From: Bdellovibrionota bacterium
GTDB lineage: Bacteria > Bdellovibrionota_G > JALEGL01 > DATDPG01
Length of the DNA: 32,929 nucleotides
Reading direction: 5' to 3'
Assembly: GCA_035292885.1 (NCBI GenBank)
Contig: DATDPG010000031.1
Location: 1-32,929, forward strand
In this document: positions 6,817 through 26,698 of the stretch, piece after piece
Layout of the letters: each line of letters opens with the position of its first letter
Position numbering within the stretch: the first letter of the stretch is position 1
Notes under the pieces: generated by a model
What the model was told of the DNA's origin: nothing
Database searches by the model: none
Seen by the model: only the letters and a program-made list of their open reading frames with translations
Translations under genes and position numbers: made by a program

Positions 6817-7965
6817 GTGCGAAATATAAAGTTCCTTTTAACAGTTTCGGTAACCCTGATGCTCGGCGGTCTGGTCAGACCGACGGCGACTTTGGGAGCT
6901 CCCTGTGTCCCCGATGACGGCGACCGGATCTTTGGGGGTAGCGTCGATCCTTCGGGAGTGGCAGTGGATACCGCCGGGAATCTTTATGTGGCAGATTACG
7001 CAGGCGACCAGGTACTCGGATACAACAGCCCCCTTACGGACCAGACCGCTGACCGGATGCTTGTGGGCCTCAATGATCCCAAAGGCATCGCGTTCGGCCC
7101 TGACGGCAACCTATATGTCGTGGATACTAAAAACAAGCAGGTTGTCAGGTACAATAGCCCTTCTTTCTCGGGTCCCTTCTCCGTACTTGGATCTACAACC
7201 CATCTCTATTGGTTGGCGATCGACTCCCTCGGCAAATTCTATGTCTCGGATCTGAAACGCGTGTTTATCTTCGACTTTGGCAGTGGGGTGACCACCATCA
7301 ATGTTCCCTTCGCGATAGGGGGGCTGGCCGTGGACGGTGCGGGCAATCTCTTTGTCTCGGATCCGAAGGGTGGCCGTGTGTTTGAGTATGACAGTCCCCA
7401 CGTAACAAACCAGGCACCGAACAGGACGATTACAGGATTAAATACTCCTATAGGTTTGACCTACGCCGGCGGCAAGCTCTATGTTGCGGACAACGGTGAC
7501 AACCAGATCGTGGTTTATGATAACCCGACCACGAACCTGACTCCAGACGGGTTCATCGGGGCTGGAGAACTCCATAGTCCTGACGGTGTGGCAGTAGATG
7601 GGTCCGGCAATGTCTTTGTGATGGAGGAGTACAGCAATCGCGTCCTGGAGTTCGACGCTAACCATGTTACGGGAGCATCGAATATTCAGCTCGTTAGCGG
7701 TTCCCCAATGGGGGGGAACAGCGCGACCCTGTCGTGGGCGACGACGGCTGAAACCGACCTCGAAGGCTTTAACGTCGCAGCGTGTGACAATAAGGGCACC
7801 CGCGTTCAGCTGAATCCGAGCCTGATCCGGTGCGAGCAGTGTATTACCGGACTGGGAAGCTCGTATTCGTTCATCGTCCCCGACAAGCCGGCCGGGAGCA
7901 CGGACGTCTTCATTGAAGTGGTGCACCAGAATACCACGGTGGAAACCTTCGGCCCGGCTCAGTAA
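6817..7965 (+). CDS. Secreted NHL-repeat beta-propeller protein
   Basis: 382 residues from a GTG start with a good ribosome-binding site (GAGGTGA just upstream). The signal peptide is at residues 1-27 (hydrophobic core VSVTLMLGGLV, cut near TLGA). Six NHL-type repeats of the form 'GVAVD..GNLYVADY..DQVLGYNSP' span about residues 40-285 and would fold as a six-bladed propeller. About 95 C-terminal residues ('SATLSWATTAETDLEGFNV...') look like a fibronectin-III-like beta-sandwich with three Cys. NHL propellers usually bind protein, peptide or carbohydrate; the ligand here is unknown. Its codon use looks less GC-biased than that of rnj. It sits between intact rnj and a decayed rnj copy, so it is likely an insertion into an older locus. 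Confidence 0.85.
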   Translation: MRNIKFLLTVSVTLMLGGLVRPTATLGAPCVPDDGDRIFGGSVDPSGVAVDTAGNLYVADYAGDQVLGYNSPLTDQTADRMLVGLNDPKGIAFGPDGNLYVVDTKNKQVVRYNSPSFSGPFSVLGSTTHLYWLAIDSLGKFYVSDLKRVFIFDFGSGVTTINVPFAIGGLAVDGAGNLFVSDPKGGRVFEYDSPHVTNQAPNRTITGLNTPIGLTYAGGKLYVADNGDNQIVVYDNPTTNLTPDGFIGAGELHSPDGVAVDGSGNVFVMEEYSNRVLEFDANHVTGASNIQLVSGSPMGGNSATLSWATTAETDLEGFNVAACDNKGTRVQLNPSLIRCEQCITGLGSSYSFIVPDKPAGSTDVFIEVVHQNTTVETFGPAQ

Positions 7966-8150
7966 AACGGTATGGACTGGATACGCGGCTCCGCCCTCTG
8001 AGGACAGCGTTCGGGAGTTTTTACCGGGATGGTCGGTCTGATCGCGATTCTGGACGCTCACTCGGGGCAACTGGTTCGCGGCCCCGAACTCTTCGCCAGG
8101 GGTCTGGCATTTGAAGAGACGGCTGAGGACCTTTCAGAAAGCCTTTCGCG
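7966..8150 (+). pseudogene. Decayed copy of the RNase J C-terminal coding region
   Basis: Reading from directly after the NHL gene stop, the frame gives a sequence that aligns with RNase J residues from about 440: 'IRGSAL' then an in-frame TGA, then '[16 protein letters not shown]' and '[21 protein letters not shown]'. The intact gene has 'IGSAVL...[16 protein letters not shown]' and '[21 protein letters not shown]'. Identity is about 75-80% over the best 35 residues and many DNA differences fall at third codon positions, so this is an old coding copy and not recent duplication. Similarity fades after about 8140. An ATG-initiated frame from 8029 to 8253 exists, but its second half runs into AT-rich DNA and it is not considered a gene. 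It may be a remnant of a second rnj or a displaced 3' end. Confidence 0.8.
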
Positions 8151-8248: not shown

Positions 8249-8277
8249 TATAATAATTGTAAACACGTTAAAAGTGT
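8249..8277 (+). promoter_or_regulatory. Candidate promoter and operator of the VapBC-type pair
   Basis: The 80 bases before the antitoxin start are strikingly AT-rich. A perfect -10 box TATAAT lies at 8249-8254; no convincing -35 box is seen. Downstream, ACAC (8263-8266) and GTGT (8274-8277) form a small inverted repeat between the -10 box and the start codon, a usual place for autoregulation by a VapB dimer. The operator role is inference. Confidence 0.4.
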
Positions 8278-8292
8278 GCTACACATAAAGCC

Positions 8293-8556
8293 GTGCAAGA
8301 TAAGACGCAATCTGGAAAGGATAAGAAGCGAAATCTCACGCTCCGCTTGGACGCAAACTTGATCCGAAAAGCGCGTGTTTTGGCCGCTCAGCGGGGGGCA
8401 TCCATCAGTCGATTGCTCTCAAAACAGATCGAACTGCTCGTTCGCGACGAAGATCGGTACAACGTCGCCAAACGGAAATCACTTGAATGGATAAGACAGG
8501 GCTTTCATTTGGGAGGAAAGATCACAGCGACGCGGGATGAATGGCATGAACGATGA
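8293..8556 (+). CDS. VapB-type antitoxin
   Basis: 87 residues from a GTG start. The sequence 'KKRNLTLRLDANLIRKARVLAAQRGASISRLLSKQIELLV' is a ribbon-helix-helix-type DNA-binding segment (strand, then two helices) of the kind seen in DUF6364-like antitoxins paired with PIN toxins. The C-terminal part ('WIRQGFHLGGKITATRDEWHER') would wrap the toxin active site. It overlaps the toxin gene by 20 bases, the typical organisation of a type II module. It is expected to neutralise the PIN nuclease and repress its own promoter. Located in the rnj-ftsK accessory insert with AT-rich flanking DNA, which fits horizontal gain. Confidence 0.82.
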   Translation: MQDKTQSGKDKKRNLTLRLDANLIRKARVLAAQRGASISRLLSKQIELLVRDEDRYNVAKRKSLEWIRQGFHLGGKITATRDEWHER

Positions 8557-8968
8557 CACGTTTGTGGATACGAATGTACTCATTTATGCCCACGATTTAG
8601 ACGCGGGCCGAAAGCATGAGATTGCTGCCGATCTTCTCGAGAAACTCTGGACAAACCGGCGCGGCGTCCTGAGCACGCAAGTGCTTCAGGAATTTTATGT
8701 GAATGTTACGCGCAAGATTTCTCACCCGATTTCCAAGTCAACAGCGCGCGAAATTGTGTCGGGATACACGGCGTGGAAGGTGGAAAATGTAACGAGCGAC
8801 CACGTTCTGCGAGCCTCCGAGTTGGAGGAACGTCACCAACTTTCCTTTTGGGATGCGCTTATCGTTTCCGCCGCCCTTTCGGCCGGGGCCGAACGGGTTC
8901 TTTCGGAGGATATGAGCCACCAACAGGGGATTCTTGGACTGCGGATTGAAAATCCGTTCGTGCCCTAG
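8537..8968 (+). CDS. vapC: PIN-domain ribonuclease toxin, VapC family
   Basis: 143 residues if the ATG at 8537 is used; the ATG at 8546 is an equally good start. The four acidic residues of the PIN fold can be placed: Asp11 in 'FVDTNVLIYAHD', Glu52 in 'VLQEFYVNV', Asp106 in 'SFWDALIVSAAL' and Asp125 in 'VLSEDMSH'. VapC toxins are Mg-dependent endoribonucleases, usually cutting tRNA or rRNA; the target is unknown here. All catalytic acids are intact, so the toxin looks functional. The 20-base overlap with the antitoxin gene supports coupled translation. Confidence 0.9.
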   Translation: MNGMNDDTFVDTNVLIYAHDLDAGRKHEIAADLLEKLWTNRRGVLSTQVLQEFYVNVTRKISHPISKSTAREIVSGYTAWKVENVTSDHVLRASELEERHQLSFWDALIVSAALSAGAERVLSEDMSHQQGILGLRIENPFVP

Positions 8969-9068
8969 TCGGCCCCTGCGGTCTCCGCTTTACTGTGTTC
9001 CGAGCCGCCGATCGGACGGCGTCCCGCGGAATCAAAGACTCTCCATCATTCTCACCTTCATCGACACG

Positions 9069-11537: not shown

Positions 11538-11639
11538 AAAACGACGATTGGGCTCCGGTCCCGACGGGAGCCCCCAAGTCCATGCTCATGCTTGCGCGTG
11601 GACTTGGGGATCCCCGTCGGGCCACCCAATCGTCGTTTT
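11538..11639. repeat. 102-bp imperfect inverted repeat after ftsK
   Basis: Three perfect stem blocks are nested: AAAACGACGATTGGG (11538-11552) with 11625-11639, CCCGACGGG (11560-11568) with 11613-11621, and CCCCAAGTCCA (11572-11582) with 11599-11609, giving 35 pairs around a 16-base loop at 11583-11598. Asymmetric internal loops separate the blocks. Its ends, A-run on the left and T-run on the right, would suit a bidirectional terminator; size and perfect 15-base terminal repeats would also suit a MITE- or REP-like element. No clear target duplication is seen. It lies 20 bases after the ftsK stop and 7 before the next gene. Confidence 0.85.
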
Positions 11640-11646
11640 AACCGCG

Positions 11647-12621
11647 ATGATCTGGTTCCATATTCGCCAAATTGCTCGACCGACCTCGCCGCATCTCGTT
11701 TTCTTCGCTGTGCTTTGTTTAATAAGTGGTCAGAGCGTCGCGCGGGAAGATCTGGTTGTTTTATATACGGGAAATACGAGGGGGGAGGTGGGGCCGTGCG
11801 GGTGCGCGACGGAGAATTTGGGCGGGTTGGCCCGCCGGGCCGCGTTCGTGCGCGGCGAAAGAGGACGCGGCGTTCCCCTTCTCCTGGTCGATTCGGGGGA
11901 CGACCTTTCGTACGCTCCCATCGCCACGTTGCCGGTCCATTTACGGAAGGAAGCCGATCGAAGCGCTCAGCTGATTTCCCGCATTTACGAGTCCCTGCAG
12001 TACGACGCCATCTTGCGCGGGGAGGCCGATATTTTCGACGGCCGCGGTTTCGGGTCTCCCGAATTCGATCGTTCGCCGGCGCTCCGGATCGTGGAAAGGT
12101 CGGGATGGCGTGTCGCCATTTTCGGTTTCGGATCCCCAAACCTTTTTCCCCGGTTCGACGAGAATTGGAGAGCCGAAATTGCGAAGATTCGGCCGAAAGT
12201 CGACCTAGTTCTCGTTCTCGCGCATATCGCCGAGACGGAGATTTCCGGCATCGCGAAGGTCCTCAAGCGCGGAGACATCGTGATCCTCGGGCATACGGGG
12301 AAACACCTAGACGATCCAATCCTTCGGAAGGATGTTCTTTTTTTCGAAGCGGACTATCGCGGGCAATTTGTCGGCAAACTCCAGCTGCATCTGGAAAGCG
12401 ATAAGCTGTCGACAAAAAATCAGATCGATCGATTGCGGCTGGAAGACGATCTCCGCTTTTCGGAAGAACCCGCAGCCCGGAAGCAAATCGAGGAGCGAAT
12501 TAAATCCCTGGGCCCCCGCCCCAAAAGCTGGTACGCGAATGAGCTTGTTCCCTTAAGCGAACGAGTTTCGCCGGACCGCGAAATTCTGAAACAGGTTGAA
12601 TCGGTGACGAGGAAAAACTAG
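11647..12621 (+). CDS. Exported UshA-like metallophosphatase-type protein
   Basis: 324 residues from the ATG at 11647; the frame is open upstream but that part is the inverted repeat. A signal peptide ends near residue 32 (hydrophobic VFFAVLCLI, then SGQSVA). The mature start 'VVLYTGNTRGEVGPCGCATENLGGLARR' is the first motif of the UshA/5'-nucleotidase-like calcineurin superfamily, with a PCGC at residues 50-53 that replaces the usual metal-binding sequence context. Later motifs are partly kept: 'LVDSGDDLS' for GD, 'GEADIF' in place of GNHE, 'LVLAHIAETE', and 'GHTGKH' for GHxH. The missing GNHE Asn-His makes normal phosphatase activity doubtful. It is between ftsK and lolA and shares the lolA transcription unit (10-base gap). 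Confidence 0.75.
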   Translation: MIWFHIRQIARPTSPHLVFFAVLCLISGQSVAREDLVVLYTGNTRGEVGPCGCATENLGGLARRAAFVRGERGRGVPLLLVDSGDDLSYAPIATLPVHLRKEADRSAQLISRIYESLQYDAILRGEADIFDGRGFGSPEFDRSPALRIVERSGWRVAIFGFGSPNLFPRFDENWRAEIAKIRPKVDLVLVLAHIAETEISGIAKVLKRGDIVILGHTGKHLDDPILRKDVLFFEADYRGQFVGKLQLHLESDKLSTKNQIDRLRLEDDLRFSEEPAARKQIEERIKSLGPRPKSWYANELVPLSERVSPDREILKQVESVTRKN

Positions 12622-12631: not shown

Positions 12632-13300
12632 ATGTTCAAGAAAATAATTCCGGCAGCGTGCCTTCTGACTTGGGCGGTGTCCGCAAACGGCGCCGAGGTT
12701 CAGGGAGTCGTCGATCAACTCCAAAAGAGCTACGACCATATTCAATCGATCGAAGCGAATTTCGAGCAAACGTATCGCTCCAAGCGATTCGACGAAAAGA
12801 TAAATCGAGGGAAGCTGGCGATCGTAAAACCGGGCAAGATGCGATGGGACTACCGTGAACCCAAAGGAAAGGTTCTGGTGTCCAACGGCAAGGAAATTCT
12901 CTTATACGACCCCGAAGATCACCAGGCGCTGGTCACGCCTCAGCCGGCGCAAAGCGACCTTCCGGTGGCGTTGGCGTTCTTGTGGGGTGGCGCCAAATTG
13001 ACCGACAAATTCACGGTCTCGCTGAAGGGCGAAAAAAAAACAGAAGATAAACAGGAAACGACGCTTCGTTGTCTCCCGAAGGAGCCGATTCCGAACGTGA
13101 AGGAAGTTTTCCTGACCGTTCGGTCGGGCGAGCCGATGCTGGTGGTCGCATCCCGCGTGATCGACTCGTTGGAGGGAGAAAGTGAAATCCGCTTTACGGA
13201 TATTCGCGTGAACCCTTCGATCGAGAACCGGCGCTTCGAATTCAAACCTCCTAAAAATACGCCGATCGTCTCTATGCCAAGCTTGAACGTGAAGCCGTAA
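12632..13300 (+). CDS. lolA: Outer-membrane lipoprotein carrier protein LolA
   Basis: 222 residues with a signal peptide at 1-20 (cut near ANGA). The mature part has the family features: 'LQKSYDHIQSIEANFEQTYRS' helix, 'GKLAIVKPGKMRWDYREPKGKVLVSNGKEILLYDPEDHQ' strands, and 'LPVALAFLWGG'. LolA shuttles lipoproteins from the LolCDE inner-membrane release complex to the outer membrane, so the organism is diderm. The C-terminus carries an extra tail, 'PPKNTPIVSMPSLNVKP', beyond the usual family end 'NRRFEFKP'. That tail and the bases just past the stop recur in decayed form at 15437-15480. The ftsK-lolA neighbourhood is common in proteobacteria. Confidence 0.93.
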   Translation: MFKKIIPAACLLTWAVSANGAEVQGVVDQLQKSYDHIQSIEANFEQTYRSKRFDEKINRGKLAIVKPGKMRWDYREPKGKVLVSNGKEILLYDPEDHQALVTPQPAQSDLPVALAFLWGGAKLTDKFTVSLKGEKKTEDKQETTLRCLPKEPIPNVKEVFLTVRSGEPMLVVASRVIDSLEGESEIRFTDIRVNPSIENRRFEFKPPKNTPIVSMPSLNVKP

Positions 13301-13348
13301 AATCTCACGCTCTAGTCCGAGTTCCGGAATTCGAGGAAGCTGAATTGT

Positions 13349-15184
13349 TTACTTTGCGGGCCCTTTGACAATCAGCCGCGCGAATTCCTTGGCTCTCGCG
13401 GCTGTCGCCTTGTCCTTCTCGTTCTCGCTTCGCCACTCGGTGATGTCGAGCGCGGTTTCCCCCTTGTCATTTTCGACCGTCCGGTCCACGTTGGCGTCGA
13501 TCAGAAGTTTCGCGACATCCACCGACAAACTCTTGTCCGCGGCGAGCTGAAGAGCCGTGTCCCCCCGGCTCGTCAGCGCGTTCACATTCGCGCTCTTGCC
13601 GAGAAGCGCTTTCACGGCATCTTTGTTCCCCTCCCGGGCGGCAAGATGGAGGGGAGTTGCGTTCGTTTCCTCCGCCTGAGCCTCGATTTTGGCGCCGTTC
13701 TCCAACAACAGTGCAATGAGTTCAGCGGAGCCGGCTGCCGCCGCCCGATGAAGCGGCAATAAAGCCGACGGAGCCGAGGGATCGGCTCCCTTCGAAAGCA
13801 AATACCGGACGGCTTCGGTGCGCCCTAAGAGCGACGCGTAGTGGATCGGCGCCTGCCCCAGCGCATCCTTCGTCCCCGCGAGGCTCGCGTCTTTTTCCAG
13901 GATCCGGCGAAGTGCTTCGGTGTCACCTTTAAACGCGGCCTCGTGAACCGGGACGGAAAGGGCGGCCCCCTTCTCGACGAGCAATGAAGCGCATGCCCCG
14001 CATCCTCCGTAGACCATCCACTCGAGGGGAGTCGCCCCTTTCCGATCTTTCGCATTCGGCGCGGCACCCGCTTTGAGGAGGATCTCGATAATGCCGGGGT
14101 CGAGGGCGTGGCTGAGCGGTGTTCTCTCTCCGCGATCTTTCGAGTCGACCGATCCGCCGGTGGAAACGAGTTTCTGTGTCAAAAGAGTTACGAGGGTTGG
14201 CTTCCCATTTTTCACAACGAGATGCAGCGCCGTTTCACCTTTTCGGTTCAGGTGGTCAACCCGGGTCTTCTTCTCGATGAGTAGGGCTGCCACTTTCATC
14301 GACCCGAGGAGGCAGCACTCCTGCAACGGGGTGTTCCCCACGCCGTTCATCGTGTTCGGATCCGCTCCGTTCCGGAGAAGAAGTTGCGCGAGATCGGTCC
14401 GATCCCCCATGCAGGAGAAATGCAGCGGCCGGTTCCCTCGTCCTCCTTCGGCATTCGCCAGCGCACGCTGCTTTTTAAGGAGCTTCTGGACGAGGGCGAT
14501 CTTTCCGTCCGCCACGGCGTCGTGAATTTCCCCGTCGTATACTGGCTCCTGGCCTTTATTCCTAAGGAACTCGAAGATCTCCATCGATCCCTCGTCGCCG
14601 GCCAGTTCCACCGGCTTCCGACCGACGCGATCCCGGACGGAAAGGTCGGCTCCAGCCGAGACCAGCGTTTTCACGACGTCCGGTTTTGCGGACCGGATTC
14701 CCGCTAGCAGCGCTGTTTCGCCCTCGGCGTCGTCGGCGCGGATATCCGCTCCCTTTTTCAGGAGAAGCTTCACAACCTCGTTATTCCCTTTCAGTGCGGC
14801 GGTGGTGAGGAGGGAGTTTCCTTTCGTGTCGAGAGTCTTGATGTCGGCGCCCGATTCGATCAGGAGGATCGCGTTCGGCGTATGGCCCGCTTTGATCGCC
14901 ACCTGTAACGGCGTAATGCCGCCGCCGTCCGGCTCGTTCGGCCCGGCGCCGCCTTTAAGAAGCGTCTCGAGGACGGTCCGGTTGCCGATCCCCGCGGCCA
15001 GCGTGAGGGGCGTGAACCCCTCCCGGTTCCGGGCATGCAGGAGGGCGGGTTCTTTCTTAACGATGCGCTGAACGTTGTCGAGCCGCTGCGCCTTGATCGC
15101 CGTGAAGAGATCAGGCGCCGTCGGCTTTCCGCACGCGGTGAGGACCACCAGCGCCAGAACCATCTTCCGAATCCGCAGCCTCAT
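13349..15184 (-). CDS. Ankyrin-repeat lipoprotein
   Basis: 611 residues from the ATG at 15184. The start is chosen because it gives a lipoprotein signal peptide, 'MRLRIRKMVLALVVLTAC' with lipobox L-T-A-C and Cys18; the open frame upstream to 15280 would spoil it. The rest is a nearly continuous solenoid of about 16-17 ankyrin repeats of the type 'G.TPLHLAA..G....V..LL..GA.'. Ankyrin arrays bind proteins. Here the lipid anchor puts the array in the periplasm or on the outer membrane surface. The gene is on the opposite strand to lolA, ends 48 bases from it and lies between intact lolA and a decayed copy of the lolA end, so it looks like an insertion. Confidence 0.92.
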   Translation of the reverse strand: MRLRIRKMVLALVVLTACGKPTAPDLFTAIKAQRLDNVQRIVKKEPALLHARNREGFTPLTLAAGIGNRTVLETLLKGGAGPNEPDGGGITPLQVAIKAGHTPNAILLIESGADIKTLDTKGNSLLTTAALKGNNEVVKLLLKKGADIRADDAEGETALLAGIRSAKPDVVKTLVSAGADLSVRDRVGRKPVELAGDEGSMEIFEFLRNKGQEPVYDGEIHDAVADGKIALVQKLLKKQRALANAEGGRGNRPLHFSCMGDRTDLAQLLLRNGADPNTMNGVGNTPLQECCLLGSMKVAALLIEKKTRVDHLNRKGETALHLVVKNGKPTLVTLLTQKLVSTGGSVDSKDRGERTPLSHALDPGIIEILLKAGAAPNAKDRKGATPLEWMVYGGCGACASLLVEKGAALSVPVHEAAFKGDTEALRRILEKDASLAGTKDALGQAPIHYASLLGRTEAVRYLLSKGADPSAPSALLPLHRAAAAGSAELIALLLENGAKIEAQAEETNATPLHLAAREGNKDAVKALLGKSANVNALTSRGDTALQLAADKSLSVDVAKLLIDANVDRTVENDKGETALDITEWRSENEKDKATAARAKEFARLIVKGPAK

Positions 15185-15537
15185 GATTTTTCGTCGTACG
15201 TTTTTCGTTTCGTCGGGTTCTTGAGCGTCATGTAAGTCTCCACCATCCGTTTTCAGCGACCGGCTGTTCGTCGAAGTCAATCGATTCGAAGGAGTTTATT
15301 ACCCACTGTCGCTTATACGCCCTTTCTATGAGGCAGCAGCGCAAGGTGTCAAGGTTGATTCATCGCCCTCAGCGGACGTTCGGTGAGACCGGACGAACAC
15401 CGACCGGTCGAGACAGAGAAGTACGTTGCCAGGATTCCTATTGTTTCGATGCCGAACTCCGATGTGAAGCCGCAAAATCTGGCGACAAGAAAAGATTTCT
15501 TTTCGTGGAGATGCTCGTGAGGTAACAGGAAAAGAGC
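15185..15537. other. Intergenic region between ankyrin and hybrid kinase genes
   Basis: 353 bases with no gene. It should hold the promoter of the minus-strand ankyrin gene and of the plus-strand kinase, but no strong -35/-10 pair stands out. Its recognisable content is the lolA-like remnant at 15437-15480 and, at 15527-15533, AGGAAAA as ribosome-binding site of the kinase gene. A short open frame from 15328 looks random. Confidence 0.6.
15437..15480 (+). pseudogene. Decayed copy of the lolA 3' end
   Basis: In one frame this stretch reads 'PIVSMPNSDVKP' followed by Gln in place of the stop, against 'PIVSMPSLNVKP' plus stop at the end of LolA (13261-13300). The DNA match continues past the lolA stop (AAAATCT in both). 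By hand count about 33 of 44 bases agree, and most differences in the coding part fall at third positions. Upstream of 15437 similarity is marginal. It is either a remnant of a second lolA or a displaced 3' end; chance similarity is not excluded because the match is short. Confidence 0.55.
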
Positions 15538-17355
15538 ATGGGGCAGGTTCGAGAAAGATCGGTTATTTGGTTCTTGTTTGTTTTGGCTGCCGCAGTCTTT
15601 CTGGTTGAGTTTTCCGTGATGTTCATACTCCCGAGTGCCTTGCTCTATTTCCCCATTCATTCTCTCTGGGGCGAGGCAGCCGCAGACGGCGGTATTTTGC
15701 TCGTGGTGATCATGCCGATCATTTACGCCTGGGTATTACGCCCGTTGGTCCAAGCCAGGCGGAAGGCTGAGGAAGCCTCCATGGCCAAAGGGCGGTTCTT
15801 AGCCAATATGAGTCATGAAATCCGCACGCCGATGAACGGGATCATCGGAATGACGGACCTTGCACTTGAGACGGACCTGACAAAGGAACAACGGGAATAT
15901 CTGGAGGCCGTGAGTGAATCGGCGGATCGCTTATTGGAGCTTATCAATGAGATTCTCGATTTTTCGAAAATTGAGGCCAAGCATTTGGAACTTACGTTGT
16001 TTGAGTTCAGCCTTCGCGATTGTATCCGGGATTGTCTGAGATTGTTGGCGTTGGTCGCGGGTAAGAAGGGTTTGGAACTCGTCTGTGACATTTCGCCGGA
16101 TGTGCCCGATGGCGTGGTGGGGGACGCCGGCAGACTTCGCCAAGTGATCCTTAATTTGATTGGTAATTCGATTAAATTCACGCATGACGGTGAATTGGGT
16201 CTTCGCGTGACATGCCTGTCGCAGACTGAAGCGGAAGCTCAGCTCCACTTCGAAGTCTTCGACACGGGGATCGGAATTCCGGAAGAAAAGCAACAGACCA
16301 TTTTTGAGGCTTTCTCGCAGGGGGATGCTTCAACTACCCGCAAATATGGTGGAACAGGGCTTGGCCTCACGATTTCGTCGCACCTGGTCCAACTGATGGG
16401 AGGGGAAATCGAACTGGAATCGAAACCCGGGAAAGGCAGCCGGTTTCACTTTACGGCTCGTCTCGGACTCCACGGAAAATCCGCCGTGGCTCGCGCTTCA
16501 TTGAAGGAGGATGATCTCACGGGGGTTCGTGCGCTCGTTGTGGACGATAATGCGACGAACCGCCAGGTGCTCGCAAAACTACTCGCTGCCTGGCAAATAG
16601 GCCCGACGGTCGTTGAGAGTGGCGAGGCGGCTCTAGCCGCGCTCGAACAAGCTAACCGATCGAATACGCTGTTTCAATTGGTGCTCACGGATTGCCATAT
16701 GCCGGGAATGGACGGCTTCGAACTTTCTCGAAGAATCAGGCAGATCCCCGTGTTTTCGAAAGCTCCTATTCTTATGATGCTTACGTCAGGAGGACAACGG
16801 GGAGATGCGGCGCGCTGCCGGGAAATCGGAATCGCCGCGTACTTGACGAAGCCGGTCATTCCGTCTGAGTTGTTGGATGCGATCCGGATTTGTCTTGGAA
16901 ACGTGGCGGGTGCGACGGATCGAAGCCCTCCTGTAACGCGGCATTCCCTGCGAAGGGACCGAGGCGTTCTGAAAATTCTTCTGGCCGAGGACAACCCTGT
17001 GAATCAAAAGGTGGTTTCATCTTTGTTAAGGAAGGCCGGGCACGAAGTCTCGGTGGTCGAGAATGGGATCGAGGCTCTCACAGCTGTCGGGAGGGGAAAC
17101 GTTGACCTGGTTTTCATGGATATGGAGATGCCGGAAATGGATGGAATGGAAGCCACGAGACGCATCCGGGAGTCGGAGAAGGAAATGAGCAGGCATCTTC
17201 CGATCATTGCGCTGACAGCACACGCCATGGAGGGAGACCGCGAAAGAATCATGAATGCCGGGATGGACGCCTACGTGTCAAAACCCGTGCGATTGGAGGC
17301 ATTGCTTCAAGCGATCGAAGACGCAAACAGGCCGGCTGGAAAGGACGATGGGTAG
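15538..17355 (+). CDS. Membrane hybrid histidine kinase with two receivers
   Basis: 605 residues. Two hydrophobic segments (about 9-33 and 50-68) anchor it with almost no periplasmic loop, and no sensor domain is visible. HisKA follows with phospho-His93 in '[19 protein letters not shown]', then HATPase_c with N-box Asn210, G1 'DTGIGIP' and G2 'GGTGLGL'. Receiver 1 has Asp385 ('[12 protein letters not shown]') and Lys438; receiver 2 has Asp528 ('[12 protein letters not shown]') and Lys582. No Hpt domain is present, so a separate Hpt protein is required for relay; Hpt domains are found in the proteins at 21503 and 23053. ATG 15538 has AGGA upstream. This is the closest paralogue in the window of the kinase at 23053. 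Confidence 0.95.
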
Positions 17356-17379
17356 GCATCTCACCGGTACCGCAGCCGA

Positions 17380-17398
17380 TAGCCCACCCTTAGGGCTA
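17380..17398. terminator. Hairpin between convergent kinase and receiver genes
   Basis: TAGCCC (17380-17385) pairs with GGGCTA (17393-17398) around a seven-base loop. It lies between the convergent genes ending at 17355 and 17428. No T-run follows on either strand, so it is only a possible terminator. Confidence 0.3.
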
Positions 17399-17427
17399 CA
17401 GACGCATGAACAAATCAAGGCTCTGAA

Positions 17428-17814
17428 TTAGTGCGGCAATGGGCGAGTCTTTGTATCGAGTGCGTCGCGGATCGTCCATAGAAGATCGTCCAGCGGGACG
17501 GGTTTGGTGAACACGCGGACCGGATGAAGCGGCAAGAGCTCGTTGGATACGCGTTCAGCGAAACCGGATTGAACGATGACGGGAAGCTTGGCAAACCTCG
17601 AATCGCTTCGGAGCTTGCGAAGAAGCTCGAGTCCGTTTGAAGTCGGAATCGCCAGATCGAGGAGGAGGAGATCCACGTGTGTTCGCTCCAAGGTTTCCAT
17701 CGCTTGCTCGGTCGTAAGGGCGGAAATCACCTGGAATCCTTGATTCTTCAATACTCGCGCGTAGGCGTTGATGACCGGCTGCTCGTCGTCGGCAATCAAA
17801 ATCGTTTTCGGCAT
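17428..17814 (-). CDS. Single-domain response regulator
   Basis: 128 residues from the ATG at 17814; an open frame upstream to 17970 adds only non-receiver sequence. It is one receiver domain: acidic pair in 'ILIADDEQPV', phosphoacceptor Asp in 'LLLLDLAIPTSNG' (about residue 53), and Lys in 'VFTKPVPLDD'. There is no output domain, so it should act by protein contact or as phosphate relay. It is monocistronic, converging with the hybrid kinase at 15538 and divergent from the metzincin gene. Confidence 0.9.
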   Translation of the reverse strand: MPKTILIADDEQPVINAYARVLKNQGFQVISALTTEQAMETLERTHVDLLLLDLAIPTSNGLELLRKLRSDSRFAKLPVIVQSGFAERVSNELLPLHPVRVFTKPVPLDDLLWTIRDALDTKTRPLPH

Positions 17815-17899
17815 GGCTCGATCATACCGAACCGACGCGCTCGATGAAACGGAATGTTTGTTCCCATTTTGGGATGCAGGGGTGGAATATACTTTCCGT

Positions 17900-17914
17900 G
17901 GGTGAGCTTCACCC
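17900..17914. repeat. Short perfect inverted repeat in a divergent intergenic region
   Basis: GGGTGA (17900-17905) and TCACCC (17909-17914) flank a three-base centre. It lies in the 285-base gap between the divergent receiver (start 17814) and metzincin (start 18100) genes and could be a regulator site. The remainder of that gap shows no gene and no clear promoter. Confidence 0.3.
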
Positions 17915-18099
17915 GGACCTCTCCGCCCGATTTCATTCGAGAACCGGTTTGATGGCGCGGTCGAGATCACCTCGACGGCGAAGGTCGGGAATAAAAAACG
18001 GCCTTAGCCAAACACCGTACCCATGCCTGAGACACGGGGGTTTTCGAAAATGCGCGCGCCGAAACCGCCTGTGGCCCGGACTTTGTACTGCTCCCGGTT

Positions 18100-18801
18100 A
18101 TGCGTTTCAAATTTGCAATTGTTCGATCGGTTGAAATTTTTATCGGCATTACGATGATGGTTTTCGGGGGATGCGGCTTCGACCACTCGAGGGGAACGGC
18201 CTCTTCAGATACGAACTCGGCCGGCGCGGAGAACGATACGGACGTTGTCCGCTACCGCGAGCTTCCGGTCCATTACAAGATCGCTTCAACGATTCCCGCC
18301 GAATTTCACGCCGACATTCGTGCGGGATTTTCAAGCTGGAACGAGGCGACCGGCGTCGAAATCTTCGTGTACGACGGTATAAAATCGCTGCAAGACGACC
18401 AACTGGCCCCGGATTTCACCGTCAACGAAAACGTCGTTTTACAGACGAATCGCAGCGGTCAATTGGCCGCCGACGCGGCCCAAGGGTCGGATGGGGGGCC
18501 GGGACCATTGGCGCGGACGTATCTGAAGGGCGCGACCAAGATCATGGATGCGGATGTTTACCTTTTTGAATTCGATACCTATTTTGTAAACGGCCGGCCC
18601 GATACGGGGGACATCTATTCCCTCGAGTCGGTTGTGGCCCACGAGGCAGGCCACATTTTGTTTGGATCCGATCACTCCTCGGACGAAGAAAGCATTATGA
18701 CGGCGGTGCTCTACCCGAAGGACAACCCAAAGGAGAAACTTGGGCCGAGCCAGAGCGACGCCGACCGATTTGAGGCGGTTTACGCCGACCTAATTGAATA
18801 A
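18100..18801 (+). CDS. Metzincin-type zinc metalloprotease, exported
   Basis: 233 residues. The zinc site is complete: HEAGHILFGSDH at residues 181-192 is the HExxHxxGxxH motif, and Met200 in 'SIMTAVLYP' is the Met-turn. The length and fold order fit a matrixin-like peptidase. The N-terminus is a signal sequence with hydrophobic segment at about 11-23 and Cys25 in 'VFGGC', an imperfect lipobox (Phe at -3), so lipoprotein anchoring is probable and not certain. No Cys-switch propeptide is visible. The substrate is unknown. It stands alone between signalling genes; the next gene, the sigma-54 activator, starts 78 bases later on the same strand. Confidence 0.85.
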   Translation: MRFKFAIVRSVEIFIGITMMVFGGCGFDHSRGTASSDTNSAGAENDTDVVRYRELPVHYKIASTIPAEFHADIRAGFSSWNEATGVEIFVYDGIKSLQDDQLAPDFTVNENVVLQTNRSGQLAADAAQGSDGGPGPLARTYLKGATKIMDADVYLFEFDTYFVNGRPDTGDIYSLESVVAHEAGHILFGSDHSSDEESIMTAVLYPKDNPKEKLGPSQSDADRFEAVYADLIE

Positions 18802-18879
18802 CCTCCGATATTTTCGATCTGGGGTTCTCCCTCGGCGGACAATTGTTTTTCTCGCCGCCCCGCCGTACCATACGGCTCG

Positions 18880-20307
18880 ATGAAAGACCCGCCGAGCAAG
18901 GCTGCTCCCTTGGGGCGTGTCGCCGTCATTGACGACGACACGGTCCTATTATCCGCCCTCGAGAGATATCTCTCCCAGTCGGGATATTCCGTGCTCGCCT
19001 TCGGCGACCCGCGAAAAGCCGTCGCCTCCTTGGAGTCGCAGGAAGTGGACCTCGTCCTGACGGATGTTTGCATGCCCGACGTGAGCGGAATCGATCTTTG
19101 CCGCGAGATCAAGCAACGCAAGCCCGACATTGACGTGGTCGTCATGACGGGTGCGGGGTCCATCGCGATGGCGGTGGATGCGATGAAGGCGGGCGCCTAT
19201 GATTTTCTGACCAAACCGTTTGACAGCATGGAAGTGGTCGTCATTTCGCTCACGAGGGCCATGGAGCGAAGGAGGCTTCTCCGCCGGACGGACTATCTCG
19301 AGCGGCAAGTCGAATTGACCAGCCGCTTCGAGAATATCGTCGGCGTGAGCGCGAAAATGAAGACGGTCTTCCGTCTGATCGAACGCGTCTCACCCTCGGA
19401 ATCGACGATCTTGATCACGGGAGAGAGCGGCACGGGGAAAGAATTGGTTGCGAAGGCCGTCTTCGAGCGAGGATCCCGTGCGGCGCGTCCGTTCCTCGCG
19501 ATCAACTGTTCCGCGTTCAGCGAAACGCTGCTCGAGAGCGAACTGTTTGGGCATGTCAAAGGCGCGTTCACCGGCGCCACCGCCCGGCGAATCGGCCTGG
19601 TGGAGGCCGCTCATGGAGGCACCCTGTTCTTGGACGAGATCGGAGATATGTCCCTGGCCACGCAGGTGAAGTTTCTGCGTGTCCTTCAGGAGGGGGAGGT
19701 TCGGTCGGTGGGCTCGAACGAGGTGCGGAAAATCGACGTGCGGTTCATTGCGGCGACAAATGTCGACCTTCCCTCGGCGGTCAAATCGGGACGATTCCGG
19801 GAAGATCTTTTTTATCGTTTGAACGTCATCAATATTCCGATCCCGCCGCTTCGAGAACGCACGGAGGATATTCCGCTGCTCGTTCATCACTTCATCCGCA
19901 AACACGCGCAGCGCACAAAAAAGATTCTCGAGGGAATCGAGCCGGAAGCGCTGGCTCTTCTTTGCCGGCATCGATGGCCGGGCAACGTCCGCGAGCTGGA
20001 AAACATCATCGAACGGGCCGTGGTCTTGAGCCGAAGCAACGTCATCCGTATCGAGGACTTGCCGAGTGAGCTGGCCGCAAAGGAGAATGATTCGGCCGCT
20101 ATCTCCTCCAAACTAATGGACGTGCCGTATCCGCAGGCGCGCGACCAGGTCGTGGACACGTTCACCCGACGATACCTTCAGGACGTCCTGGCGCGGGCCG
20201 GAGGCGTGATCGCGGAGGCGGCACGTATCGCGGGGATGGACCGGAGCAATTTCCGAAGGCTGTTGGGCCAACACTCGATCGACGCCGCGCTGTTCCACCA
20301 CGAGTGA
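18880..20307 (+). CDS. NtrC-family sigma-54-dependent response regulator
   Basis: 475 residues with receiver (phospho-Asp62 in 'LVLTDVCMPDVSG', Lys112), AAA+ domain and a Fis-type helix-turn-helix. Walker A is GESGTGKE at 181-188, the sigma-54-contacting GAFTGA loop is at 229-234, Walker B is 'GTLFLDE', and the arginine-finger region 'FREDLFYRLNV' is intact. The HTH is at about 436-465 ('AGGVIAEAARIAGMDRSNFRRLL'). All parts needed to activate sigma-54 RNA polymerase are present. No kinase is fused or adjacent upstream. The next operon starts 195 bases downstream and has a strong sigma-54 promoter match, making it the obvious target (inference). Confidence 0.96.
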   Translation: MKDPPSKAAPLGRVAVIDDDTVLLSALERYLSQSGYSVLAFGDPRKAVASLESQEVDLVLTDVCMPDVSGIDLCREIKQRKPDIDVVVMTGAGSIAMAVDAMKAGAYDFLTKPFDSMEVVVISLTRAMERRRLLRRTDYLERQVELTSRFENIVGVSAKMKTVFRLIERVSPSESTILITGESGTGKELVAKAVFERGSRAARPFLAINCSAFSETLLESELFGHVKGAFTGATARRIGLVEAAHGGTLFLDEIGDMSLATQVKFLRVLQEGEVRSVGSNEVRKIDVRFIAATNVDLPSAVKSGRFREDLFYRLNVINIPIPPLRERTEDIPLLVHHFIRKHAQRTKKILEGIEPEALALLCRHRWPGNVRELENIIERAVVLSRSNVIRIEDLPSELAAKENDSAAISSKLMDVPYPQARDQVVDTFTRRYLQDVLARAGGVIAEAARIAGMDRSNFRRLLGQHSIDAALFHHE

Positions 20308-20388
20308 CGGAGTAGAATTGACCTGAATCGGGGCCGTTTGACCCTGTCTGCCTTCTCCCATCCTCTTAAAATGATTTGGTATTTCCAC

Positions 20389-20400
20389 AACCCGTGGGTT
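20389..20400. promoter_or_regulatory. Candidate enhancer palindrome for the sigma-54 activator
   Basis: AACCCGTGGGTT is a palindrome with five-base arms and a two-base centre, about 75 bases upstream of the sigma-54 -24 element. NtrC-type activators bind such dyads at about this distance. A second, more widely spaced dyad, AAATGATTT (20369-20377) with AAATCATTT (20439-20447), brackets it. Assignment to the neighbouring regulator is inference. Confidence 0.35.
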
Positions 20401-20472
20401 CGCTCGACCTGGGACTCCAAGGCAGCTAAATAAATTATAAATCATTTCAGCTGGTTGATACGCCGTGGCGCC

Positions 20473-20488
20473 TGGCACGCGACCTGCT
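20473..20488 (+). promoter_or_regulatory. Sigma-54 (-24/-12) promoter of the phosphorelay operon
   Basis: TGGCACG (20473-20479), four bases, then CTGC (20484-20487), against consensus TGGCACG-N4-TTGC. The GG and GC doublets are exactly ten bases apart, as required. The single mismatch is C for T. Transcription would begin near 20499, only about four bases before ATG 20503, so the first gene would have almost no leader. Confidence 0.65.
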
Positions 20489-20502
20489 CTTCCTTTGGCT
20501 CG

Positions 20503-21102
20503 ATGCATACTCAACCCAACCAAGACTACACAACAATCGCGCGGTTTCTCACGCGAACGATTCAATTTTCAACGTTCCGAAACAGCTATGAGAGGAGCCT
20601 CGCGCTGGTCACTGACTACCTCGCGCGAACCTTTCATGTCGGAAAGGACGAAGTGGCGCTTCTCGTCCTGGACCGGGTCGGCCAGGAGTTGCGGTTCGTC
20701 GCTCCGGACTACTTGGCCAGGCTGTCCGCTACCATCCCGTTCGGCCGACGGCAATCGCAGGCGGCGATCTGTTTGTGGGATCAAAAGGCGCGGATTGAAA
20801 ATCGTTTTGCCGCCGTCAATCACCTCGCCTACTTCGAGAAAGTCCGCCGAGACAACCCTCATCCGCATACGATCGAAAAGCTTCTGACGTATCCGGTCGT
20901 GTCGGGTTCTTCGCCGATCGGCGTCGTACAGATTTCAAGGAAACGAACCCTCAATCAAGCTACGCTTCCTGATTTTCACGTGGATGACATTCGGATCCTG
21001 GAAGCCATTCAGGCGCCGCTTCGCGCGCTTCTTCAGGGAATTCGATCCGCCTCATCGGAATCAACGCCGGCTCCCGAACTCAGAAAAGGAGGCACCCAAT
21101 GA
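20503..21102 (+). CDS. GAF-like domain protein heading the phosphorelay operon
   Basis: 199 residues from the ATG at 20503. An upstream in-frame TTG at 20455 is rejected because it would lie before the predicted sigma-54 start site. The pattern 'FSTFRNSYERSLALVTDYLARTFHVGKDEVALLVLD' through 'LLTYPVVSGSSPIGVVQISRK' and 'DDIRILEAIQAPLRALLQGI' fits a GAF domain: helix, six-stranded sheet and closing helix. GAF domains bind small molecules or act as dimer modules; no Cys suitable for a bilin is evident, and the ligand is unknown. No output domain is present. The stop overlaps the next start by ATGA, so it is probably a sensor or adaptor for the downstream receivers. Confidence 0.75.
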   Translation: MHTQPNQDYTTIARFLTRTIQFSTFRNSYERSLALVTDYLARTFHVGKDEVALLVLDRVGQELRFVAPDYLARLSATIPFGRRQSQAAICLWDQKARIENRFAAVNHLAYFEKVRRDNPHPHTIEKLLTYPVVSGSSPIGVVQISRKRTLNQATLPDFHVDDIRILEAIQAPLRALLQGIRSASSESTPAPELRKGGTQ

Positions 21103-21506
21103 GTCAGCGCTCCGTAATCCTGGTCGTGGACGACGATCCCATGATGCTGGCGTTGGAACGCATGGTGCTGGAGCAAATCGGCGGCTATGACGTCATCTCC
21201 ACTCAAGACCCCGCCGAAGCGATCGATTTGGCGTCGTCCCAACATGCATCCGCGATCGTCCTCGATGTTTCGCTGGGCCCAAACCAGAACGGAATCGACC
21301 TTTCCAAGAAAATCAAGAATGACGAGCGGTCCAAATCCGTCCCGATCCTTCTGGCCACGGCGCACGGAGAGGCGGACAAGGGCAAGGAGATTTTGTTTCA
21401 AAGCGGCGCTGACGCATACATCGCAAAACCCTTTTCATCTCTCCAAGACCTCGTCGGCAAAGTCCGGGCGCTCCTCGCCCGCCGGCTCGCGGAGGTAAGC
21501 GTATGA
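21099..21506 (+). CDS. Single-domain response regulator
   Basis: 135 residues, one receiver. Acidic residues are in 'ILVVDDDPMM', phosphoacceptor Asp56 in 'AIVLDVSLGPNQNGIDL', Thr in 'LLATAHG' and Lys in 'AYIAKPFSS'. The Shine-Dalgarno AAAGGAGG sits inside the end of the GAF gene. ATGA overlaps join it to both neighbours. With no output domain it is a CheY- or Spo0F-like carrier; the Hpt domain in the next protein is a likely phosphate partner (inference). Confidence 0.93.
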   Translation: MSQRSVILVVDDDPMMLALERMVLEQIGGYDVISTQDPAEAIDLASSQHASAIVLDVSLGPNQNGIDLSKKIKNDERSKSVPILLATAHGEADKGKEILFQSGADAYIAKPFSSLQDLVGKVRALLARRLAEVSV

Positions 21507-23056
21507 CCGATGCCGTGAAAAAAAGAATACTCGTCGTCGACGATGATTTATCGATTCTCGACTTGATTCGAGCCGGCTTGGATCCGGCACAGTACGAAGT
21601 GGTCGGCACGACAAAAGGTCGGGAAGGCATTGAGCTGGTCGAGAAGGAGCGCTTCGACCTTGCCGTGGTCGATGCGCTTCTCCCCGACCTTCGCGGAGAC
21701 TTTGTCACGAAAGCGATTCGCGAGCGGTATGGACCCGACCAGCTGCCGGTCATTGTCCTTTCCGCTTTTTTCCGGCGCAATCGCGGCTCCAAAGAAGTCT
21801 TGGCGCGTTGGCAGGCCAACGCATTCATCCCGAAACCGTTTGCCATCGTTCAGCTGCAAAAGGAGATCGATCGTCTCTTGGCCGTGGAATCGCGAGACAG
21901 CCTCGGAAGCGATGCGCTCCAGACATTGCGGGACAACTACGTTCAAAACCTCGTTCGAACGGTCGGCGATCTTCACAAAGCGATGGCGCTCAATCTTTCG
22001 ATTCCGATGATTCGTGCGGTTTGTCACCAGATCGTCGGCTCGGCAGGTTCGTACGGCTATCCCGAAATCAGCGAACATGCCAAAGCGCTGGAACATTTCT
22101 CCGCTTCACTCCACGAAGACTTCGGCCTCTCGATGTTCGAGCAAAATCGCATGAATCTACTGTTCGACCGGTTGGAACGGGCCGTCGGTCACGCCAAAGC
22201 CGTGACTTGCGCGAACTCCACGAACCCCGCGGAAGAAACATCCGTCATCTGTGTCAGTGCGGATAACGAAACACGAAAGCAGCTGGAAAAAGAAGCCCAT
22301 AATTTTTCCTTCACGATTCGAGGAACGCCCTCGTTGGACGACGCCGTGCGCCTCGTTCGGAGTCAATTCGTACATGGAATCATCATCGACCTCGATTCCG
22401 TACCGCCGAATCAATTCGGAGCGCTTTCCACGCTGCGATCGTTATCCCAATCGAAAAAGGTCTGGATCGTAGGCTTCGGATCCAACGACGGCACGGCCGC
22501 GCAATCCCAGGCCGCCCGGGCGGGTGTCGACCGCTTGGTGTCGAAATCCGCGGGAACGCGCGCCCTGCTGAACGTCGTACGGAACGGAATTCAACCGAAA
22601 ACCGAATCCGCGGAAACGCTGCTCGTTGTCGACGACGATCGTGAGGTATTTCGTTTTCTCAAGATGGCCCTGGCGAGCATCGGCTTCCGGATTGAGTTTG
22701 AAAGCAACGTCAATGCCGTCCTCGAACGGGCACGGGAGCTAAAGCCCAGTTCGGTTCTGATGGATTTCGAAATGCCGGGAATCCGCGGGCACGAGATCTG
22801 CCGCGCTTTTAAGGTCGATCCGGAACTCTGCCGAATTCCCGTGATTATCTACACGTCCTTCAACGACGAGGATCACCGAATGCGGGCGTTACGGGCCGGG
22901 GCCGTGGAAGTTCTTCACAAGGGATCCAGCATCGACGAACTTAAGCTCCGGCTCCAAAACCTGGTGAATCTCTATGGGATGTCGCGTGCCGCAAAACCAG
23001 TAAATGCGACCTCCCCTTCCAACGGGGCCCTCGCGCCACGAGCTGAAGCGAGATGA
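21503..23056 (+). CDS. Multi-receiver protein REC-Hpt-REC-REC
   Basis: 517 residues and no kinase core. Receiver 1 (about 8-125) has Asp57 in '[13 protein letters not shown]' and Lys111. An Hpt domain (about 140-230) has His175 in '[26 protein letters not shown]', the expected phospho-His with small residues after it. A degenerate receiver (about 246-362) keeps Asp296 and Lys348 but lacks the N-terminal acidic pair ('VICVSADNE'). Receiver 3 (about 370-490) has 'LLVVDDDRE', Asp421 in '[12 protein letters not shown]' and Lys473. It resembles the multi-domain relay proteins seen in deltaproteobacteria, and may pass phosphate among kinases and receivers of the operon. Both ends are ATGA overlaps. 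Confidence 0.92.
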
Positions 23057-25533
23057 ATCGAGAAGCCATGAGAACCGTACTGTCCAATCTCGGCATGCGC
23101 AAAAAACTCTTGCTGATCGCGATGGCTGCAGCGGTCCCGACCCTGCTTCTCGCTTCCGTCGGCATGATCGCCTACGAGGTCGTCGCATTTCGCGACAAAC
23201 TGAGAGGCGAAGTAACGTTGGTTTCGAACGTCGTCGGTTCGAACAGTGCGGCCGCGCTGCTCTTTGAGGATTCGGCGGCGGCCAAGCGTGTCTTGTCGGC
23301 GCTCATCTGGCAACCGCACGTTATGATAGGCACGCTCTATACGAAAGACGGCCACGTATTTGCCGCGTATGCGCGCGACGGGAACGAGTCCGTGCGTTCG
23401 GGCCAAAATCCGTTTGCGCGGACGGGCCACTGGACGGAAAAAGGGAATCTCCATTTTGTTTCCGACGTTCGTTACCGGGATGAGGTTGTGGGAAAGCTCT
23501 ATCTTCGGGCGGATGCCCGGGAACTCTACAAGAAAATGTGGTGGGACGCGTTGTTGACGCTTCTCTTCCTGGCGGGCACGGCTTCGGTGGCCTATGTCGT
23601 ATCCTCGAAGATTCAAGGAATCATTTCTTCTCCCATCGAGCGTCTCTTCACGACGATGCAGGACGTCGCGGAGCGCCAGGATTTTTCGATTCGGATCCCC
23701 GAACTCTCCAAGGACGAAATCGGAGGGCTCAGCCGGGGATTCAATGCCATGTTGGGGGAGATCGAACGGCGGAACGAGGAACTTCAAAAGCATCGGACAC
23801 ATCTCGAGGATCTCGTCCAAAGCCGCACGAAGGAATTGATCGAGACCAATCGCCGTTTGGAGCTGGACATCGCGGAACGAACACGCGTCGAGGCCGAGCT
23901 CGTCGAAGCCAAAAGCGTTGCGGAAGACGCCAACCGGATGAAAGGCGAATTCCTGGCGAATATGAGCCATGAGATTCGGACTCCGATGAACGGGATCATC
24001 GGGATGACGGAGTTAACTTTGGAAACGGCTCTGGCCTCCGACCAACGGGAATACCTGGAAGCGATTCGGGCATCCGCGGATACGCTTCTCAATATCATCA
24101 ACGACCTGCTCGATTTTTCGAAGGTGGAATCAGGAAAAGTGGAATTGGACCCCGTGGAATTTCGCTTGCGCGAAATGCTGGACGAGACGACGAAGGTCAT
24201 GTCGGTGCGGGCCGCGAAGAAGCGCTTGGAATTGACGTACGACGTAGCCCCCCAACTGCCCGATTCTTGGATCGGGGACGCGACGCGATTCAAGCAGGTG
24301 TTGTTCAATCTTGTCGGCAACGCCATCAAGTTCAGCGAGCGTGGAGAAGTAGCGGTTCGCGTTGATGTGGCGCGACAAGAAGAGAAGACATCGCTTCTGC
24401 ATGTCCGCGTGGTGGATACGGGAGTCGGAATACCGTCCCAGAAGCTGCGGACGATCTTCGAACCGTTCGTCCAAGCGGACGCCTCCACGACACGAAAATT
24501 CGGTGGAACAGGTTTGGGGCTGGCGATTTCTACGCGGTTGGTGCGATTGATGGGGGGCGAGATTTGGGTGGAGAGCGAAGTCGGGAAGGGAAGCACATTT
24601 CATTTCACCGTACGCATGATGCAGTCGTCCCTGGACCTCGCGGGGGACCTGGCCCGGTGCCGCGGCCTGGGATTTTCTTGTCATCTTCAAAAACGGATCA
24701 AACAGGCGGATTTGCGCCGGGCCGTCGAAGATGCGATGCGGGCGCCCGGAAAACCGGCGCCGGCCATGGCGGGCGCGTCGGCGCGCAACATTCTTTTGAC
24801 GGAAGACAATCCGATCAACCAAATGTTGGCGAAAAGAATCTTGGAGAAAGCCGGCCACCGGGTCATCGTGGCCCAAAATGGAGCGGAGGCGCTGGAAGCG
24901 CTGGCTCGAGAGGAATTCGATCTCATTGTAATGGATGTCCAAATGCCGGTCATGGACGGGCTTCAGACGGTCGCGGCGATCCGCAAGCAAGAGAAGAGAA
25001 CGGGGAAACACACTCCGATTCTGGCGATGACGGCGCACGCCATGAAAGGCGACCGGGAGAAATGCCTCGGAGCCGGCATGGATGCTTATTTGTCCAAACC
25101 GATCCGTGGAAAGGAACTGGTCGATATGGTGAATCAATTCGCGTTGCGTAGATGTCACGGTATGGCGGGTTCTCCCCGAGAGCAAGCGCCGGAATTCGAT
25201 ATCAGCCACCTGAAGTCCGTCGTGGGAGGGGACCGCGCGCTCATGGGCGAAATCGTCCAACTTTTTCTGGCGCATTCGCCCAATATGGTTTTGGCCATGG
25301 AACAAGCCATGGAGCAAGCCGATCGGGAGACCCTGGCCAGGTCGGCGCACACCATTAAGGGAGCGATTGGGAATTTTTCGAAGGGAGCCGCGTATCAAAT
25401 GGCCATCGAGGTCGAAGACGCGGCCCAAAAGGGCGATCTAGCACATGTGACTCCAATCGTGGCCACGCTGCGAAAGGAACTCGATAAAATGCGGTCCGCG
25501 TTGGCGATGTATGGGGAGGGAGGCTTTCGATGA
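23053..25533 (+). CDS. Hybrid histidine kinase with periplasmic sensor, receiver and Hpt
   Basis: 826 residues. Transmembrane segments at about 18-42 and 166-186 enclose a periplasmic sensor of about 120 residues (CHASE8-like: '[25 protein letters not shown]'). HAMP (about 187-240) and coiled coil lead to HisKA with His306 ('[19 protein letters not shown]') and HATPase_c (Asn423; 'DTGVGIP'; 'GGTGLGL'). A 32-residue remnant of a receiver end ('[21 protein letters not shown]') follows directly, then a complete receiver with Asp628 and Lys682, and an Hpt domain with His766 in '[16 protein letters not shown]'. The relay His306-Asp628-His766 is intact and could hand phosphate to the receivers of the same operon. 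Coupled at both ends by ATGA. Confidence 0.95.
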
Positions 25534-26129
25534 GAGTCTTGGTGGCCGATGACGATCTGACGTTTCGTACGCTCCTGGAAAAAACGCTTCAGCGGGAAGG
25601 CTATACGGTCCTCCTCGCAAAGGACGGCCGGGAGGCTCTCCAGGCGCTCACGGCTCCATCGGCGCCGCCGTTGGCGATTCTCAATTGGGTCATGCCGGGT
25701 CTCGACGGAATCGAGGTCTGCCAAAAAGTTCGCGCCGTGCCGACGCAAATGCCGCCTTATATCCTCCTCCTGACCTCACGGGACCGAACGAAAGACGTGG
25801 TTCTCGGGCTGGAATCCGGCGCCGATGATTACCTCACCAAGCCGTTTCATCCGGCCGAGTTGGGGGCTAGGCTGCGCGTCGGCCAGCGGATCATCGAACT
25901 TCAGCGAAAGCTCTCGGATCGCATTGCCGAGTTGGAACGAGCTCTCGCTCAAGTGCATACGCTACGCGGACTCCTGCCGATCTGCAGCTATTGCAAGAAG
26001 ATCCGCGACGATCATAACTATTGGCGGCAGATCGAATCTTACATCTGCGAGCACTCACAAGCGTCGTTCACGCATAGCATCTGTCCGGGGTGCGAATCGC
26101 GATTGTTCGCGCCGGGATCGGATTCCTAA
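25530..26129 (+). CDS. Atypical response regulator with Asn at the phospho site and Cys-rich tail
   Basis: 199 residues. The receiver has the acidic triad start '[10 protein letters not shown]' and Lys104 in 'YLTKPFHP', but the phosphoacceptor position is Asn52 ('[13 protein letters not shown]', codon AAT), where relatives have Asp. A coiled-coil linker (about 118-146) joins to a C-terminal module, '[14 protein letters not shown]' to 'SICPGC', with Cys at 152, 155, 173, 185 and 188. This tail is widespread on receivers in deltaproteobacteria and looks metal-binding, function not established. Asn52 predicts that the protein cannot be phosphorylated normally. The stop overlaps that of the convergent toxin gene by four bases. 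Confidence 0.9.
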
Positions 26130-26398
26130 TGGGTGCCCAGTCGGTAAAGAGTCAGGACGGAGTCGTTTTCAATCCGGTAAATGAGAACCAGATCTCCTCG
26201 AACATGGCAGTCCCGATGATTTTTGAATATCCCCTTCAGCGGATGATCCCGATACTCGGGAGGGAGCGGCTCCCCGGAAGCCAAAAGCCTTACGACCTCT
26301 TCAATTTCGGATCGGATCTTTGGACGACTCTCAAGAAGTTTCTCGTAATCCTTTTTGAAGCGGCGAGACCACTCAATCTTGTGTCGCGGAGGAATCAA
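26126..26398 (-). CDS. yafQ: YafQ-type mRNA interferase toxin
   Basis: 90 residues of the RelE/YafQ superfamily. Conserved features are basic N-terminal helices ('WSRRFKKDYEKLL'), 'YRDHPLKG' with His52, 'RDCHVRGDLVLIYRI' with Asp63 and His65, and a C-terminal 'LYRLGTH' with His90, matching the His/Asp set used by YafQ for ribosome-dependent mRNA cleavage. It lacks the few residues that normally follow the final His, ending right at it. It overlaps the antitoxin gene by ATGA. Its last four bases overlap the stop codon of the opposing response regulator gene. Confidence 0.9.
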   Translation of the reverse strand: MIPPRHKIEWSRRFKKDYEKLLESRPKIRSEIEEVVRLLASGEPLPPEYRDHPLKGIFKNHRDCHVRGDLVLIYRIENDSVLTLYRLGTH

Positions 26399-26691: not shown

Positions 26692-26698
26692 GAACGAA

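Follow-up and report, generated by a model that had tools for sequence, protein, structure and literature searches.

A diverged copy of the lolA 3' end beyond an ankyrin-repeat gene: a possible trace of insertion in a Bdellovibrionota genome

Why should the last codons of lolA recur further along the same strand, on the far side of a gene for an ankyrin-repeat protein? We addressed this question in a window of 32,929 nucleotides, the whole stretch of DNA analysed, from a Bdellovibrionota bacterium. A preliminary description had placed the recurrence at 15437-15480, with about three quarters of 44 bases matching, and both the coordinates and the proportion proved correct: the ungapped local alignment of the two copies scores 22 at +1/-1 for its 33 identities. 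The copies have a spacing of 2175 bp, and the ankyrin gene is the one gene between them (Table 1). The recurrence itself is confirmed. As to its origin, we tentatively favor an ancient insertion at the 3' end of lolA, with copy 2 as the decayed, far-side lolA tail that remained, a reading to which we would give slightly less than an even chance. Copy 2 is most likely a scar of insertion rather than a working element.

Table 1. Features of the lolA locus and of the two parallel loci (window coordinates unless a contig is named).
Feature	Coordinates	Strand	Description
RNase J gene segment recurring downstream	6424-6533	+	within RNase J gene 4939-6702
NHL-repeat protein gene	6817-7965	+	Pfam NHL; between RNase J gene and its fragment
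Orphan RNase J fragment	8023-8132	+	87/110; E 1.4e-20
lolA	12632-13300	+	222 aa; Pfam LolA E 2.4e-23; NCBIfam TIGR00547 above cut-off; sole LolA match in assembly
Copy 1	13262-13305	+	lolA 3' end: 12 codons, stop, 5 nt
Ankyrin-repeat protein gene	13349-15184	-	ATG at 15184; Pfam Ank_2 E 4.5e-80; between the copies
Truncated J-domain gene tail	15181-15252	-	23 codons + TGA; 49/66 to G000:C110:11168-11233
Stretch between the two fragments	15253-15436		no family above cut-off in frames scanned
Copy 2	15437-15480	+	orphan copy of lolA 3' end; 33/44 to copy 1
Hybrid histidine kinase	15538-17355	+	Pfam; first gene of two-component cluster
GGDEF tail copy	C187 2180-2243		58/64; 28 bp behind DUF6036-like nucleotidyltransferase frame
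GGDEF tail copy	C187 2919-2990		65/72; 12 bp behind DUF6036-like nucleotidyltransferase frame

In the reading frame of lolA, copy 1 gives PIVSMPSLNVKP and a stop, and copy 2 gives PIVSMPNSDVKPQ. The DNA agreement had also been said to run past the lolA stop codon. This stands for five bases (AATCT), but the stop itself, TAA, is CAA in copy 2, and thereafter the similarity is lost: beyond both ends of the match, identity is at background, with 1-4 matches per ten-base block. The longest exact run is 9 bp. Copy 2 sits in an antisense frame, and its own frame of 53 aa has no Pfam match and does not reach the conserved LolA domain, identity being at background upstream of 15437. A recognizable protein carrying copy 2 is thus ruled out by the lack of a Pfam family match, and a second lolA gene by the single LolA match in this assembly. 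Nor is the tail a multicopy motif scattered over many unrelated loci, since two of its sub-patterns have exact matches at copy 1 and copy 2 only in the 3.1 Mb assembly. The motif PIVSMP is absent from the LolA tails of the other genomes compared.

The ankyrin protein begins with a lipoprotein-like signal, MRLRIRKMVLALVVLTAC, as read by eye. A DNA search of 58 genomes gave one useful match for its surroundings and nothing significant for 15253-15436. The useful match joins 15187-15252 to a J-domain gene at G000:C110 (E 8.3e-5), with a score of 32 against a shuffle maximum of 23 (0/3000). Read on the minus strand, the segment gives KRMVETYMTLKNPTKRKTYDEKS and a stop, shares 17 of 22 amino acids with the C110 protein, and aligns to the end of the Pfam DnaJ profile (positions 44-63, E 0.037, below the cut-off). 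By DNA similarity, the C-terminal helix of a J-domain is present; an in-frame TGA lies directly upstream, the minus frames examined hold no HPD, and the full J-domain is absent. By its sequence, then, 15181-15252 is a fragment of a J-domain gene. Its own TGA overlaps the ankyrin ATG as ATGA, so the ankyrin gene probably once stood behind a gene whose last part coded for a J-domain.

In all three relatives of the same order (G001, G002 and G003), rimO lies directly behind lolA on the same strand, without an ankyrin gene; the RimO model TIGR01125 (NCBIfam) scores above cut-off for these three proteins and for the protein of the present genome. Here, however, rimO is found on contig C141 behind a YfiR-like gene, not behind lolA. 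G004 belongs to a different order of the phylum, and there the frame listed after lolA is not rimO. Upstream, ftsK directly precedes lolA in G001, G002 and G004, but not in G003. It appears that the lolA-rimO order was broken in this lineage whatever the origin of copy 2, and the locus would still mark that lineage-specific break if the insertion reading were false. The arrangement of lolA, ankyrin gene and remnant is absent from the four other genomes of the phylum, in which the ankyrin protein has no match either. The suggestion that the two copies flank the ankyrin gene as a remnant gains from the J-domain tail, the broken lolA-rimO order and, most of all, two parallel loci, but not from relatives. 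A separate observation is a 357-aa frame at 11548-12621 (+), between ftsK and lolA, which is missing there in G001, G002 and G004 and has no Pfam match.

The two parallel loci lie in the same genome, and all three loci have one order in common: a parent gene, another gene or genes and, beyond these, a stray copy of the 3' part of the parent. At the first, the copied RNase J segment lies 57 bp downstream of an NHL gene and ahead of a DUF6364-like frame and a PIN-domain gene, with no third place in the genome at E <= 0.01. This is a stronger match than the lolA copy. The matched segment stops 169 bp short of the end of the RNase J gene; it is an internal piece of the 3' region, and the gene end does not follow. 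The DUF6364-like frame and PIN-domain gene (8272-8969, +) are likely a toxin-antitoxin pair and stand before ftsK. At the second, a GAF-GGDEF gene on contig C187 (L153) ends at 819, and its last ~65 bp (parent stretch 747-818) recur twice on that contig, about 90% alike, neither copy ending more than 2 bp from the stop. The first of the DUF6036-like frames there is slightly under the Pfam cut-off, and the first interval also holds minus-strand DUF5615 and DUF433 genes.

A phase-aware scan for orphan copies covered 34 stretches (514,383 bases, ~17% of the assembly) and returned 48 rows, with both strands listed, from which the GGDEF, RNase J and lolA loci were kept by eye. Rows in L149, L152, L155, L156, L192 and L196 were dropped, by judgement, as repeat proteins or paralogues; the short-spaced rows of L192 were shown by a test to be 6-bp arrays.

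If an insertion is the answer, a DNA segment, now reduced to the ankyrin gene and the cut J-domain tail, would have entered at the end of lolA, and its entry would have duplicated or replaced the gene tail so as to leave a lolA tail on both sides. lolA would have stayed intact, with its own end either kept or replaced. Copy 2 is followed by a two-component cluster and not by rimO, which requires at least one further event; the loss of rimO behind lolA and the arrival of the kinase cluster would together be that separate event. An insertion that duplicated or replaced the tail would explain the gene order and the intact parents at three loci, and it was because the RNase J and GGDEF loci were found in the same genome that we raised this reading and lowered both chance and a rearrangement joint. 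The two copies would then bound a single insertion, the tail perhaps having arrived on the incoming DNA, and the genes between the repeats at all three loci would likewise have been inserted.

Further findings point to insertion: both lolA copies lie on one strand around a single gene, copy 2 also ends near the stop (5 nt past it), as the GGDEF copies do, and synteny breaks immediately after lolA. Mismatches lean toward third positions of the parent codons in lolA (7/11, P 0.014), RNase J (15/23, P 0.0003) and one GGDEF copy (5/6), but not in the second GGDEF copy (3/7). This lean would fit tails whose divergence took place in other hosts, where they were still coding ends; it is weak evidence because a bias of this kind would to some extent also arise if one copy simply decayed. 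Against insertion, the RNase J copy, internal and without the gene end, does not fit simple target duplication, the second GGDEF copy lacks the third-position lean, and the match at lolA is both short and less strong than those at RNase J and GGDEF, with chance pairs of equal score present in real DNA. No recombinase was found among the 23 window proteins or the 6 C187 proteins scanned, and no empty site was seen in the genomes searched, which include no member of the same family.

A wider proposal would be that this genome is peppered by small cargo modules that entered at gene 3' ends, carrying or copying the tail of the host gene, while the genes at the landing sites (lolA, RNase J) stayed intact; the tails, having come from other hosts, would have diverged mostly at synonymous positions. 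Candidate modules are the ankyrin, NHL, nucleotidyltransferase and toxin-antitoxin-like genes. We consider the proposal unlikely. If tail-bounded insertion were recurrent in this little-sampled phylum, the entry points of foreign genes could be read without a recombinase or terminal repeat, and, if true, it would show how genes can enter next to important ones and leave these unharmed. An orphan gene tail found singly is readily written off as debris.

The strongest rival is a rearrangement joint, in which short-homology or illegitimate recombination joined incoming DNA, with a lolA tail abutting the kinase cluster, beside lolA, the ankyrin gene and the J-domain gene, and in doing so cut the last of these; the tail would then be the edge of the incoming DNA rather than a repeat produced by insertion. 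The truncated J-domain tail does face copy 2, the lolA-rimO order is broken with rimO on another contig, and the differences between lolA and copy 2 are mainly synonymous, all of which suit a joint. However, a joint alone leaves the GGDEF and RNase J loci unexplained, no genome was seen with lolA beside this kinase, and a search with the N-terminus of the kinase found nothing in the other four genomes of the phylum. We hold this explanation to be possible but unlikely.

Chance similarity of 44 bases seems to us improbable, although the controls do not all speak with one voice. In the ungapped comparisons the alignment stands clear of shuffled sequence: 0/3000 shuffles of the two regions reach the ungapped score of 22, and 0/30 dinucleotide shuffles of the whole window do so (maximum 20), yet with a gapped 5/-4 scheme 1/3000 shuffles ties the real score. 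When the window was compared with 232.8 kb of the same genome, 8 and 6 diagonals on the two strands scored at least 22, and 2 of these 14 look unrelated by eye, which amounts to ~2 in 24 window-equivalents, or ~0.08 per window self-scan. A reversed-sequence control gave 5 diagonals at 18-20 and none at 22 in 12 window-equivalents; it was set aside in favor of real DNA because reversal destroys dinucleotide order. Background identity at both match ends also suits chance. On the other side stand the third-position lean of the lolA mismatches and two much stronger matches with the same gene order, both within the 17% of the genome sampled and one of them in this window. Within the window, every other pair scoring at least 22 was assigned, by profile search and eye, to kinases, receivers, ABC ATPases, NHL repeats or the RNase J pair. 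When the gene end was sought downstream of 85 lolA loci (up to 5 kb each, some with less, and G001 counted twice), this window had the highest self-match, 22, and the other 84 reached at most 20.

A functional element common to the two genes, such as an RNA structure, promoter or binding site, is very improbable: copy 2 does have a weak sigma-70-like match (15468-15440, minus strand), but no such match is listed for copy 1, the assembly holds no third copy, on neither strand does the folding of copy 1 or copy 2 clearly exceed that of shuffled sequence (z -0.03, -0.79, 0.99, 0.42), and the window has no Rfam match at gathering scores, the last two results ruling out a structured RNA.

At the level of titles, we noticed nothing in the literature on this lolA-ankyrin locus, but several known systems bear comparison with an insertion bounded by gene tails. 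Insertion with long target duplication was reportedly described for restriction-modification genes by Nobusato et al. in 2000, as cited in PMC3031569 and PMC1643837; the inserted genes are bounded by variable-length direct repeats of host sequence. The present loci resemble these in having direct host-sequence repeats on both sides of the intervening genes (lolA 33/44, GGDEF 65/72 and 58/64, and RNase J 87/110, internal) and in the toxin-antitoxin-like genes of the C187 interval. They differ in that the repeats are gene 3' parts, diverged (75-91%) and in the case of RNase J internal, and in that neither the ankyrin gene nor the NHL gene is of the restriction-modification kind.

A second comparison is with integrative elements that replace the tail of the gene at whose 3' end they lie. 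As with such elements, a gene tail stands here on both sides, and differences between copies can resemble diverged coding ends; unlike them, the lolA pair has no identical core, its longest run being 9 bp, and the 23 window proteins scanned include no recombinase. Homology-facilitated illegitimate recombination, as set out in excerpts from PMC6382021, could create abrupt joints beside homologous sequence. The Wolbachia ankyrin genes, in the excerpted account of PMC3563639, offer a likeness in the combination of ankyrin gene, repeats and recombination; there, however, the duplicated or deleted segments lie inside the ankyrin genes themselves and are bordered by direct repeats that are identical.

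Elsewhere in the window, 15538-32778 forms a dense two-component cluster of hybrid kinases, receivers and a sigma-54 activator, within which 18100-18801 (+) encodes a Matrixin-like (Peptidase_M10) protein. Near the other end, a chalcone/stilbene-synthase-like gene at 1894-3048 (-) lies close to a methyltransferase.
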